Part shown: positions 44,066 to 51,461 of the stretch, piece after piece | Position numbering within the stretch: position 1 is the first letter of the stretch | Layout of the letters: each line of letters opens with the position of its first letter | DNA from: Roseibium album | GTDB lineage: Bacteria; Pseudomonadota; Alphaproteobacteria; Rhizobiales; Stappiaceae | Direction: 5' to 3' | DNA: 64,000 bases | NCBI RefSeq assembly: GCF_001404515.1 | Contig: NZ_CXWE01000005.1 | Coordinates: forward strand, 310,001 to 374,000 | Position numbers and translations under genes: made by a program | Notes under the pieces: generated by a model | Seen by the model: the letters and a program-made list of their open reading frames with translations, nothing else | Database searches by the model: none | Told to the model about the DNA's origin: nothing

Positions 44066-44142
44066 TGGTGGGCCCGGAGGGACTCGAACCCCCAACCAAT
44101 CCGTTATGAGCGGACGGCTCTAACCAGTTGAGCTACAGGCCC
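44066..44142 (-). tRNA. tRNA with CAT anticodon, probably tRNA-Ile2
   Basis: A 77-nt cloverleaf: acceptor GGGCCTG pairs with CGGGCCC, D arm GCTC/GAGC, anticodon stem GTCCG/CGGAT (the outermost pair is G-T) with loop CTCATAA, and T arm GGGGG-TTCGAGT-CCCTC (last pair G-C, one wobble-free stem). The CCA end is encoded (44066-44068). The anticodon CAT is at 44106-44108. The acceptor and variable loop (TTGGTT) are closer to the lysidine-modified tRNA-Ile2 than to elongator Met, but this needs identity-element comparison. The gene is not disrupted and there is no adjacent integrase. Confidence 0.88.
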
Positions 44143-47543: not shown

Positions 47544-48422
47544 TCATGACGGTTTCTTTCTGGCCGGACCGGATTTGATATGGAAGCCTTCCCTGCCGCT
47601 GAAGCCAAGGTCCAGGCCGAGTTCCAAGCTCCACTTGTTCGACAACCGTTCGAGGAACACCGTGTCCCGCGTCATTTCGGAGAATACGCCGCGCCAGCGC
47701 GCGAGTTCCTTCTCGTCCGTGCCCCTGGAAGCGAGAATGTAGCTTGGGGCAGACCGGAACACGAAAGCAATTTCAATCGCCGACGGATCAGCACCGGCCT
47801 GTGACAGGATCGACGGTGCTTCAAGATCAGACGATATCCAGAGATCCGTGCGCTCTGCCATGAGTTTTCGGAAGTTGAGAAGATGCTGAGATGTCGTCTC
47901 GACCGTCACACCCTCCGACAATAAAAACCCGGTTCGCCAGTCACCATCAACACCGGACACGGTCAGCTTCCTGGCAACAATATCCTCGACACTCGATATC
48001 TCGAAGTTGCTGCCCGAACGAGCAAACAGAATGTGCCTTCGGGTGATGACCGGACCGATCGGTTGGTAGCCGAGTGCTTTTCGCTCTTCTGTCAGGCCGG
48101 CCGTGAAGACAAGGCAGTTCGGGTTGCTTTGCGCCTTCAGGAACGCACGTGCAGTGGGCAGGAACTCAATTTCCGGCTGCTCGCCGAGCCGGCGTGCCAT
48201 TTCGTTGACAAGGTCAACCGTTGTTCCGGAAATCTCGCCGTCTTTCAGATAGTTGGTCGGCGGTTCTTCAAGGGTCAGAAACCGGATGTCAGACGCGATC
48301 GAAGGCACTACGGTTCCAAGGATGCAAAATACAAACTGAACCGCAAATATCACGCTGTTTCGCTGATTTCGGCCATTTGAGCATGCGCTGAAACGCGATG
48401 TCACCGGCAACGGATCGTTCAT
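47544..48422 (-). CDS. Periplasmic family-3 solute-binding-like protein (first of a pair)
   Basis: A 292-residue protein beginning MNDPLPVTSRFSACSNGRN with a signal-type hydrophobic stretch (VIFAVQFVFCILGTVVPSIA). The mature sequence IRFLTLEEPPTNYLKDGEI and FTAGLTEERKALGYQPIGPV parallels the downstream gene, so the two arose by tandem duplication. The ATG at 48422 overlaps the TGA of the acetyltransferase stump (48419-48421), showing that this gene was once coupled to an intact GNAT gene. The A+T-rich insert now separates them. Confidence 0.75.
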   Translation of the reverse strand: MNDPLPVTSRFSACSNGRNQRNSVIFAVQFVFCILGTVVPSIASDIRFLTLEEPPTNYLKDGEISGTTVDLVNEMARRLGEQPEIEFLPTARAFLKAQSNPNCLVFTAGLTEERKALGYQPIGPVITRRHILFARSGSNFEISSVEDIVARKLTVSGVDGDWRTGFLLSEGVTVETTSQHLLNFRKLMAERTDLWISSDLEAPSILSQAGADPSAIEIAFVFRSAPSYILASRGTDEKELARWRGVFSEMTRDTVFLERLSNKWSLELGLDLGFSGREGFHIKSGPARKKPS

Positions 48423-48557
48423 AGTCTCCTGTACCAGACCTGCATTGGCTTTTCTGTTTCTTCCGCCTCGCCGATATCCAACCACGGGAAGGTTACGATA
48501 ACGTTTTCCAGCTTCTCATACCCGCGCTTGCGCCAGAACGGGTCGAGAGGCCGGTAG
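48419..48557 (-). pseudogene. 3' stump of GNAT acetyltransferase
   Basis: This minus-strand frame encodes only the last 45 or so residues of the acetyltransferase, from YRPLDPFWRKRGYEK to MQVWYRRL and a TGA. The intact gene at 50859-51461 ends MQVWYCNL. Here the stop overlaps the start of the next gene as ATGA, the tight spacing expected of the original chromosomal arrangement. The stump is therefore probably the native 3' end, cut from its gene by the insert. Confidence 0.85.
48432..48557. repeat. Left copy of 126-bp direct repeat
   Basis: Runs from TACCAGACCTGCATT to GGTCGAGAGGCCGGTAG. It matches 50872-50997 in the same orientation with 5 mismatches (two of them adjacent codons changing Lys-Ala to Glu-Glu in the acetyltransferase). 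Both copies correspond to the last 42 codons of the GNAT gene. Confidence 0.95.
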
Positions 48558-48582
48558 CCCCCGGATCGAATGAGAACAACAA

Positions 48583-48606
48583 CAAAAAATCTAGGCCGAA
48601 CGGCCT
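48583..48606 (-). terminator. Minus-strand terminator at left edge of island
   Basis: AGGCCG-AA-CGGCCT (48593-48606) is a perfect 6-bp hairpin; read on the minus strand it is followed by AGATTTTTTG. It would stop leftward transcripts, such as read-through from the acetyltransferase across the island, before they reach the two solute-binding genes. Confidence 0.65.
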
Positions 48607-48663
48607 CATTTGGATCAAAACTAAAACTTCAGAGCAACAACCAGATACAAAGAAAAATACATA

Positions 48664-48690
48664 ATTTTTACCTAGAGTTAGGAAAAAAAT
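48664..48690. repeat. A/T-flanked hairpin in island leader
   Basis: ATTTTTACCTA-GAGT-TAGGAAAAAAT is an inverted repeat with one mismatch, having T and A tracts on its two sides. It could act as a weak bidirectional terminator or a regulatory structure about 100 bp before the peptide gene. Confidence 0.45.
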
Positions 48691-48735
48691 ATAACCAAAG
48701 ATTCGAATACAAACAAAGGGAAAATTGTTTTTAAT

Positions 48736-48764
48736 TTGAACAAAAATTTTTTTTGATGTATAAA
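48736..48764 (+). promoter_or_regulatory. Sigma70-like promoter of island genes
   Basis: TTGAAC (48736-48741) and TATAAA (48759-48764) are separated by exactly 17 bp in an A+T-rich stretch. The peptide start codon follows 27 bp after the -10 box. This is a good match to the housekeeping promoter form and would drive both island genes. Confidence 0.7.
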
Positions 48765-48791
48765 TAGATAATTAAATCAGGGGTAGGCATT

Positions 48792-48923
48792 ATGAAAAAG
48801 ACTATGATTTTAGCCTTGACAGTGTTTACATTATTCTCGCTGTTCGGCTCACTAAAGATAACTGTCGATAAACAGAGCAATGCTGCTTATGCGCAATGCC
48901 ATGTAAATCCAAGCCTTTGCTAA
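48792..48923 (+). CDS. 43-residue peptide with signal-peptide-like leader and two-Cys tail
   Basis: A short gene: MKKTMILALTVFTLFSLFGS, then a polar stretch, then NAAYAQCHVNPSLC and a stop. The leader has a basic start and a hydrophobic core; AYA before Gln is a plausible signal-peptidase site. Cleavage there would release QCHVNPSLC, nine residues with two cysteines able to form a ring and an N-terminal Gln able to cyclise. AGGGG lies 8 bp before the ATG, the same site and spacing as the downstream gene, and a promoter lies just upstream. I recognise no family. An uncleaved membrane peptide is the alternative. Confidence 0.65.
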   Translation: MKKTMILALTVFTLFSLFGSLKITVDKQSNAAYAQCHVNPSLC

Positions 48924-48964
48924 AAATATTTAAATGATGCTCTTTCATAAAAGGGGCTACTCAT

Positions 48965-50887
48965 ATGATCGAAAAAGCCAGAGATATCGATAAGTCAAAC
49001 ATAAATATCTATGAGTATTACTCTACAAATATTATTGACGATCCCATTTTTACGAGCACTCTCCTTCTATCGTTGCTATACCTAATTTTTGAAGGCGCAA
49101 AAAAGTATTCTGAGGAAACTAGCAATAGACAGCAAGCACCTCAGATTGATGCTATTGAAAACCCTGAAGCTCCAGGAAGTAGACAAGAAATCACTAACCG
49201 TTTTTTCTCTGAAAGAGAAATTAGCGCAGCAAGCAAATGGTATCGCGGCAGAATTATTTACGTTTCAATAATGATAAGTATTTTTATATTAAGTATTCCT
49301 CTATTTCCTCAATTACTAAGCGCATTATTACCAGATTCACCTTTTGCAAATTTACCTAACTCTTTTGCACCTTTACTAGCAGCGCTGTGTGTTGGAGGTT
49401 TTTTTCCCAATTTCCCAGGTATTAATCAGCTTGAACTCTTAATTCGACAATTTGCTCATAAACAAGCTGGAGTTCCAGAAGACATTAATTTTTTAAAAAA
49501 TAAGCTTTTACTAAATCCTGTAAACTGGAATGCTTTGTCGGCAGCAAAATCTAGTGATAACCAATTGACAATTTCCGAATCATTCGAAAACAATCACGAT
49601 AAAAGTATTTCCAGCTACTCTGATGCAATACGATCAGTTCAGAAGCTAAAACTAGAGGCTCCATATTTCTTTGAAATAAAGAATAGGCTACAAAAAGCAT
49701 TATACTATCACAACATTATTAAGAAAAATCCATTTCATCCAAATGCTATTGAAAACGATATTGTAGAACGTTTTAATACACTATCTGAAAACAATCAATT
49801 CAGATTAGAATGGGTGGAGAAGCAGTTAGCATCAAATATCGGAGAAAATGAACGTAAAAAGATAAATAAAGAACTCGAAACCACTTTGAGATCCATATGC
49901 TACCTATTAGCATTAAATATTCTAACTCAAACAAAAAAACTTGAGAAAATCGATGTAATTACAAGTGAATATTTCATTTATCAAGGAGATAAATCGGAAT
50001 TGCCATATTCATTTAGCAATCAAATAATCTACAGTTTTCTAATTAGCGGTATATGCTTATTTTTTTACGCATTAGTTTTTCAATTAATTGCACAAGTTAG
50101 TATTTGGGATGCCTATTACACCTATCAATACAATGAAGTTGCTTCAGAGAAGCGACGCTGGGTTCTTTCACCCTCATCGATTAAAGATGCTTTCACCGTA
50201 GCGATACAAATCGCAATTCCCTCTATCACCGCCATCGCAATTTATATGAAAATTCGTCAACGCAAAGCTAGAGATAACGCGTGGTACTTCTCTAATATTC
50301 AACCTAAAGATGCAAGTATTAAATACGTTTCTCCGAAGTCAATATTGTTCGCACTCACAATATCCTATTTGGCGATTGCTCTCCTTCAAATATTATTCAT
50401 GACACCACTAACAATTTTTTTAGATGGAAAACCTGCCCCCAACATATTTGGAGTAGACTACTTCGCGAAAACAATTGGATCTTCTTCAAATCTTTTTATA
50501 TTACTCAAACCATGTCTACCGGCGATGATTTTTACTTTGATATTTGCTAGGATGGTAGAAAATATAATTAAAAATATGGCAAGATCTAATTCCACAATAA
50601 TTAGCATTGAAGAAATATTATGCAACTCTACTGTAATATCGATTATAATTTCGATAATCAGCATTTCAATAATGATGAATTTATTAAACGAAGAAAATAT
50701 TATATTTTCAAAGCCACCACCAATGCTGCCTACAAAAGAGAAAATTAGCCCACTAACAATAATTCATGCGCAATCGCTTGATTTGTTTTGGATTTTTTCA
50801 ATGAACTTTCTATTCTTTAGCGGGACAATCCTTAATGTTCGCAATTCTCTGAATCAACCTAAAGGTTACAATACCAGACCTGCATAG
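48965..50887 (+). CDS. 640-residue polytopic membrane protein of A+T-rich island
   Basis: The protein has about eight or nine hydrophobic segments: near 27-42, 97-118, 131-149, 353-378, 410-428, 459-482, 510-528, 556-572 and 605-623. A cytoplasmic or periplasmic domain of about 200 residues (150-350, helical and charged) separates the first three from the rest. The motif QLELLIRQFAHKQAGVPED follows helix 3. I do not recognise the family. AAGGGG lies 8 bp before the ATG and the peptide gene ends 41 bp upstream, so the two are probably cotranscribed. The last residues (YNTRPA) are encoded by the right repeat, and the gene overlaps the acetyltransferase tail on the other strand. Confidence 0.8.
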   Translation: MIEKARDIDKSNINIYEYYSTNIIDDPIFTSTLLLSLLYLIFEGAKKYSEETSNRQQAPQIDAIENPEAPGSRQEITNRFFSEREISAASKWYRGRIIYVSIMISIFILSIPLFPQLLSALLPDSPFANLPNSFAPLLAALCVGGFFPNFPGINQLELLIRQFAHKQAGVPEDINFLKNKLLLNPVNWNALSAAKSSDNQLTISESFENNHDKSISSYSDAIRSVQKLKLEAPYFFEIKNRLQKALYYHNIIKKNPFHPNAIENDIVERFNTLSENNQFRLEWVEKQLASNIGENERKKINKELETTLRSICYLLALNILTQTKKLEKIDVITSEYFIYQGDKSELPYSFSNQIIYSFLISGICLFFYALVFQLIAQVSIWDAYYTYQYNEVASEKRRWVLSPSSIKDAFTVAIQIAIPSITAIAIYMKIRQRKARDNAWYFSNIQPKDASIKYVSPKSILFALTISYLAIALLQILFMTPLTIFLDGKPAPNIFGVDYFAKTIGSSSNLFILLKPCLPAMIFTLIFARMVENIIKNMARSNSTIISIEEILCNSTVISIIISIISISIMMNLLNEENIIFSKPPPMLPTKEKISPLTIIHAQSLDLFWIFSMNFLFFSGTILNVRNSLNQPKGYNTRPA

Positions 50888-51461
50888 GCTTTTCTGTTGC
50901 TTTCGCCTCACCGATATCCAACCACGGGAAGGTTACGATAACGTTTTCCAGCTTTTCATACCCGCGCTTGCGCCAGAACGGGTCGAGAGGCCGGTAGTCA
51001 GCCGGCTTCATCGGGTGATCATCGGGACGGACAACCCCGCAAAACGCCGCCTGGTCAAATCCCAGACCGCGGGCATGGGCCTCGCGCCCGTCGAAAAACC
51101 GATGACCGATGCCCTGGCCCCGATAGGCGGGATCGAGAACGGACTCTGCGAGGTAGAAAATCTTATCGGTGTCGTATCCGCGTTCCCTCAACGGTGCCTG
51201 AAACGCCTCGTACTCTTCCCCGAGCGGTTCGCCCGTTGCCGCTCCCACAAGTTTGTCACCGTCATATGCCCCGACAATCACGGCACCTTCCGTCGCAACG
51301 TAGCGCTGCAGGTACCTGGCTTCGTACTCCATCGTTCCTTCATACAGATACGGCCAGTCGTGAAACACAGATATCCTGAGAAGTGCAAGATCCTTCAGCG
51401 TGTTTTTCAGATCTTCGCCTGTTAAGCTTCTGATTGCGATCGACACGGCTAACCCTTTCAA
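50859..51461 (-). CDS. GNAT-family N-acetyltransferase
   Basis: A 200-residue acetyltransferase. The acetyl-CoA loop YRGQGIGHRFFDGRE is at about 113-127, and AESVLDPAYRG precedes it. The C-terminal region YRPLDPFWRKRGYEKLENV is typical of a GNAT subgroup with a WRKRGY tail. The substrate is unknown. Its last codons were replaced on insertion of the island: it now ends MQVWYCNL rather than the MQVWYRRL of the stump at 48419. The gene lies next to speD and is divergent from it. Confidence 0.85.
   Translation of the reverse strand: MKGLAVSIAIRSLTGEDLKNTLKDLALLRISVFHDWPYLYEGTMEYEARYLQRYVATEGAVIVGAYDGDKLVGAATGEPLGEEYEAFQAPLRERGYDTDKIFYLAESVLDPAYRGQGIGHRFFDGREAHARGLGFDQAAFCGVVRPDDHPMKPADYRPLDPFWRKRGYEKLENVIVTFPWLDIGEAKATEKPMQVWYCNL
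50872..50997. repeat. Right copy of 126-bp direct repeat
   Basis: This copy supplies the 3' end of the intact acetyltransferase gene and, on the other strand, the stop of the 640-codon gene. It differs from the left copy at 5 of 126 positions, too many for a very recent target duplication, so the two probably came from different strains or have diverged since insertion. Confidence 0.95.

Follow-up and report, generated by a model that had tools for sequence, protein, structure and literature searches.

Islands that restore their target gene

Tyrosine-integrase islands can carry an identity block of up to about 250 bp with a replacement sequence for the gene that they enter, for example at the protein gene icd (PMC10111431), and the displaced-fragment logic of such islands is set out in Islander (PMC4383910). 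Cis-mobilizable elements (CIMEs) retain att sites and have lost integration and transfer genes (PMC5704250). Here we describe a small A+T-rich island at the 3' end of a GNAT acetyltransferase gene of Roseibium album, found in a window of 64,000 nucleotides (NZ_CXWE01000005.1, contig C5 of genome G000, positions 310001-374000, forward strand; genome size 6.9 Mb). It resembles icd-type islands in that the 3' end of the gene stands at both ends, the working copy is completed by island DNA, the identity block exceeds 100 bp and a relative has an empty site; unlike them, it has no integrase, is only 2.3 kb long, targets a GNAT gene and has no recognised arm sites. It is like a CIME as an insert that lacks integration and transfer genes and keeps att-like ends, and unlike one in that no related integrative and conjugative element or integrative and mobilizable element was found at the site and there is no tandem partner. 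A protein-gene target, which a preceding sequence-only reading of the window had regarded as an oddity, thus has a precedent in the icd islands. The locus is a clean case of a target-restoring island without a recombinase, in which empty site, native end and element end are all legible, and the mover of such islands becomes a testable question by way of the circular form.

The insert, its repeats and the empty site

Two 126-nt copies of the GNAT 3' end, identical at 121 positions (96%) and differing at five, enclose the insert, which has 33% G+C (Table 1). By windows, G+C is 0.31-0.36 within the insert and 0.50-0.60 outside it, and a search of the genome's own downstream DNA with the GNAT end recovered the repeat copy at E = 1e-57. 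GNAT is made whole by the right copy, and the left stump leads into the solute-binding protein gene SBP1 through an ATGA overlap. The coordinates, repeat identity, base composition, gene order and complete GNAT frame given by the sequence-only reading are confirmed, and its proposal that a relative should have GNAT joined directly to the solute-binding gene is borne out by the sister species G020 (locus L033). There, speD-GNAT-SBP1-SBP2 is uninterrupted and the GNAT TGA overlaps the SBP1 ATG, which is an empty site, and DNA is colinear on both sides (94.7% identity over 2,997 bp and 95.0% over 2,456 bp). GNAT also ends in ATGA beside an SBP1-like gene (52-63% identity) at L039, L046 and L063.

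GNAT is present in all 45 genus genomes and the cargo protein in one, the genome under study (E ≤ 0.001). GNAT neighbourhoods were taken from all 44 genus relatives; that of L058 ends within GNAT and that of L061 ends 296 bp beyond it. A second GNAT 3' fragment occurs in one of 87 family genomes (65 with a GNAT match), again that under study. Other inserts at the GNAT end, which the earlier reading had suggested looking for, did not appear: the 86 other family genomes (64 with GNAT) have no second GNAT fragment, in a search that did not extend to inserts without such a fragment. The contig of G033 ends inside GNAT, which hints at an assembly break, and no second copy was found there. That the structure arose without any mobile event, through tandem duplication of the gene end or misassembly, is highly improbable. 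The strain is represented by a single assembly, which would allow for error, yet the copies differ at five sites and enclose 2.3 kb of 33% G+C, the insert protein is absent from the 44 other genus genomes and the locus is interior to a 623-kb contig. Tandem duplication of the GNAT end is ruled out by the G020 empty site.

GNAT was not found in viral contigs by short-peptide patterns or in phages by tblastn. Among plasmids, 13 records match at <60% identity; 11 cover at least 80% of the protein and two are partial, one of which (H13) is a C-terminal piece. The GNAT ortholog at L076 (G030:C8) stops after codon 162 (TAG), the sole internal stop among the 45 genus matches listed.

Table 1. Features of the island and its flanks (window positions)
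Feature	Coordinates	Strand	Basis
SBP1, family-3 solute-binding protein, native GNAT neighbour	47544..48422	-	SBP_bac_3; 95% identical and GNAT-adjacent in G020
ATGA, native GNAT stop overlapping SBP1 start	48419..48422	-	sequence; G020 comparison
Left repeat copy, read as displaced native GNAT 3' end (stump)	48432..48557	-	equals G020 at 4/5 differing positions
AT-rich insert, 2,314 bp	48558..50871	.	repeats, G+C; cargo protein absent in 44 other genus genomes; G020 empty site
Terminator-like hairpin followed by T run, leftward	48593..48606	-	match to consensus only
Small open reading frame, 43 aa, hydrophobic leader and C-terminal Cys loop (QCHVNPSLC)	48792..48923	+	pattern with control
640-aa polytopic membrane protein, TAG stop within right repeat	48965..50887	+	remote homologs
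GNAT acetyltransferase gene, complete, 200 aa, 3' end probably from element	50859..51461	-	Pfam Acetyltransf_1; ortholog in 45/45 genus genomes
Final GNAT codons from insert (CNL, TAG; native RRL, TGA)	50859..50871	-	protein length same as G020
Right repeat copy, attachment-site-like, completes GNAT	50872..50997	-	repeat comparison; alleles compared across relatives

The native and the probable replacement end

The differing sites are block positions 42, 87, 94, 98 and 111 (0-based), and the alleles were set against those of 42 relatives (all 44 but the incomplete L058 and L076). G020 equals the left copy at four of the five sites and the right copy at one, position 42, a third codon base that is freely variable in the genus. 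Judged by these alleles and by the ATGA junction in G020, the left copy is the native GNAT end, as the earlier reading had concluded. All 42 relatives have A at position 98, where the right copy has C (Glu to Ala), and the T of the right copy at position 111 is seen in none of the 42 GNATs; right-copy bases at positions 42, 87 and 94 occur in 14, 12 and 3 of the 42. Beyond the block, the right copy reads Cys-Asn-Leu-stop versus native Arg-Arg-Leu-stop, with protein length and stop position unchanged. The right, working copy is probably an island-borne replacement end of the same length that has drifted. Of the earlier claim that the element brought its GNAT end from another strain, the element-borne end stands and the strain origin is less supported, because two right-copy bases unseen in 42 GNATs make a drifted end more likely than import from a sampled species. 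The stop of the cargo membrane-protein gene (50885-50887) lies inside the right repeat, base 50886 (block position 111) differs between copies, and this gene and GNAT are convergent.

Mechanism of insertion

In its anatomy, the locus corresponds to the attL/attR signature that is standard for islands with a replacement gene end in the attachment site: a displaced native fragment and a regenerated gene stand at the ends, and the site is uninterrupted in G020. An integrase of its own beside an end was not recognised, since neither of the two plausible open reading frames (ORFs) matches an integrase in Pfam, PHROGs or NCBIfam; nor did any insert ORF match a recombinase or transposase in these collections, in agreement with the sequence-only reading. 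The insertion, the empty site, the completed target, the native left end and the lack of a recognised recombinase are directly supported. We consider it probable that a foreign two-gene island entered by a crossover between GNAT and a circle, with the target restored, and that the agent was most likely an integrase since lost, as in a CIME, or supplied in trans. A circular molecule on which the final ~139 bp of GNAT were also present would have undergone a single crossover with chromosomal GNAT within an identical part of the repeat. The native GNAT 3' end would have been pushed to the far side of the island, still leading into SBP1, and GNAT would have received the island's end, so that the gene would remain whole. 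The island is best called CIME-like, either decayed or trans-mobilised, because no recombinase was recognised inside the insert. The crossover itself is well supported and its agent is not; we infer the circular form and an integrase rather than RecA.

Several observations weigh against integrase-mediated entry. No integrase was recognised <2.2 kb from the GNAT end in the stretches of the 44 relatives, some of which are short. With a profile built from 19 integrases among the genus matches listed, matches beyond GNAT occur in seven loci, every one at least 2.2 kb past it; six (L037, L050, L051, L059, L072 and L073) adjoin tRNA-Met and the seventh (L065) is weak. Arm-type repeats were not found at the island ends, where 28 shared 9-mers compare with a shuffle mean of 29.1. 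G020 shares its base at position 42 with the right copy instead of the left; the crossover may therefore have occurred within the block and not at its edge, which RecA would permit as well. An excised circle was not observed. The five right-copy differences may also be mutations that arose after insertion. The integrases near GNAT were rejected as the island's agent because those in six loci sit at tRNA-Met, which is another hotspot. In the window, this tRNA-Met lies downstream of GNAT at 44066-44142, and an integrase frame stands beside it in six relatives.

Integration by RecA only, in which a circle carrying a GNAT 3' segment by chance recombined through ordinary homology (126 bp) with no site-specific recombinase, is less probable. 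In its favour, neither a recombinase nor arm sites were recognised, strands could be exchanged within identical runs of 42 and 44 bp, and the allele at position 42 points, if weakly, to a crossover somewhere from position 43 to 86. A random fragment is, however, unlikely to preserve both gene length and stop, and such precision is typical of evolved attachment sites. Entry of linear foreign DNA by transformation or a gene transfer agent, with homology in GNAT on one side and illegitimate joining on the other, is less probable still. DNA uptake by either route occurs in marine alphaproteobacteria and the insert has a single homologous edge. One-sided homologous joining of linear DNA usually deletes rather than duplicates recipient DNA, yet here the native locus seems complete and 126 bp are repeated.

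Cargo family

The insert holds two plausible genes, for a 43-aa exported-type peptide with a Cys loop and for a 640-aa polytopic membrane protein, and the module that they form is apparently intact. The membrane protein has no significant match in Pfam, NCBIfam, PHROGs, PADLOC or PDB sequences, and PADLOC defence models gave no family for either cargo protein or for relative L163. Short-peptide patterns did not find the cargo in genome or viral collections, nor did tblastn find it, or its relative from G469, in plasmids or phages. Across 398 genomes of the phylum, the only convincing relative obtained was the 590-aa G469 protein (blastp 1e-6); weak matches in G248 and G380 were judged spurious by eye from sequences and neighbours, without a family search. 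Searches from the G469 protein gave matches, some of them weak, in 9 of 397 order genomes and 17 of 146 genomes of the G469 genus, and later profile searches gave matches in 4 of 385 class genomes and 5 of 398 phylum genomes. The G469-derived family proteins are mostly polytopic (542-1028 aa) and loosely share a motif.

In one clade, the ORF directly upstream is short and encodes a peptide with a hydrophobic leader whose C-terminus forms a Cys loop, in most cases CNPxxxxC. This pattern, which was defined after the first peptides had been seen, occurs in the window, in 8 of 21 family loci from searches (two of the 21 are poor members, L127, which is short, and L136, which has no membrane segments), in all nine named loci and in one of the five new loci from later profile searches (G384); as a control, one of the other 347 long ORFs in the genome under study has it, the window's own pair excluded. 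Peptide and membrane protein are paired at 17 distinct loci, window included, with duplicates L138/L166 and L139/L165 merged. The cargo points to an uncharacterised family in which a very small exported-type peptide with a Cys loop accompanies a polytopic membrane protein. Literature searches, which did not reach full texts, listed nothing on the module; they covered islands lacking an integrase, Labrenzia islands, the pairing of peptide and membrane protein, and membrane partners of GrrM.

Fold prediction gave a predicted local distance difference test score (pLDDT) of 37.6 for the window membrane protein alone and 55.5 for L163 with an 8-sequence alignment; the L163 model had no Foldseek match in the PDB at E ≤ 0.001. 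The L126 protein has a weak match to the Xre_ParS antitoxin model at its C-terminus (residues 559-604, 5.9e-6), below the curated cutoff. A second cargo-family copy exists in the same genome as the island (L140, G000:C1:692681-694723), with ordinary G+C and a peptide ending QTACNPATQYCR; its protein is 97% identical to a Labrenzia sp. DG1229 protein.

Gene neighbours and a possible role in peptide maturation

Seven of nine genes tested that follow peptide-clade members encode family-3 solute-binding proteins (L163-L167, L169 and L170), and those following the L168 and L137 members had no match. Twelve loci lack the peptide (L124-L135); in six of these (L125, L126, L130, L131, L133 and L134) a radical-SAM-like ORF stands directly upstream, and all six ORFs score above the curated GrrM/OscB cutoff; the upstream genes of L127 and L128 were outside this check and the other four loci have different ORFs. 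The cargo family is thus tied, through distant relatives lying 9-75 nt behind GrrM/OscB maturases at these six loci, to radical-SAM peptide maturases and resembles GrrM/OscB cyclophane peptide systems. Unlike these systems, the island lacks a radical-SAM gene (no GrrM/OscB radical-SAM/SPASM maturase ORF was found in the insert), no glycine-rich precursor was seen, and the island's short, exported-type peptide has a Cys loop at its end. For the distant relatives, which the maturases adjoin, a link to peptide maturation is good; for the island cargo it is only suggestive. Judged only by the gene neighbours, the cargo likely has a peptide-linked role, perhaps in immunity, as a receptor or as an exporter.

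It is also conceivable, if rather unlikely, that the island, far from being a wreck, is a minimal but complete mobile unit, consisting of a target-rebuilding attachment segment and an exported-peptide/membrane module and relying on borrowed or host recombination. The module would then constitute a novel peptide system that recurs in Alphaproteobacteria and is related to, yet separate from, GrrM cyclophane systems.

Terminator-like sites number three versus 2.5 expected, promoter-like sites are not in excess (10 versus 9.4 in shuffles) and an Rfam search gave no matches.

Similar insertions in the genome and in relatives

Repeat pairs of 40-600 bp, at least 85% identical and within 15 kb, were sought in 1.24 Mb of the 6.9 Mb genome; six pairs are listed, of which only the GNAT pair encloses an AT-rich insert. 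Compared loci over 5.5 kb were scanned for pairs of at least 50 bp and at least 80% identity, which occur in L034, L048, L055 and L092, none around an AT-rich stretch (the sole AT-rich gap is 33 bp, in L034). Another AT-rich two-gene island (G000:C5:484578-486598; L193:10578-12598) is convergent with a gene that, by eye, is uvrB-like and starts 6 bp past the stop of that gene. Its two genes, for a reverse transcriptase of type RT_UG13b and a SLATT protein, make up a defence-associated reverse transcriptase (DRT) pair. A flanking repeat was looked for and not found there, and the island is unmatched in G020, where similarity stops at the end of the uvrB-like gene. At G000:C3:68251-78750, a 10-kb AT-rich stretch contains ORFs of 1,202 and 1,344 aa near an ORF that, by eye, is resolvase-like.

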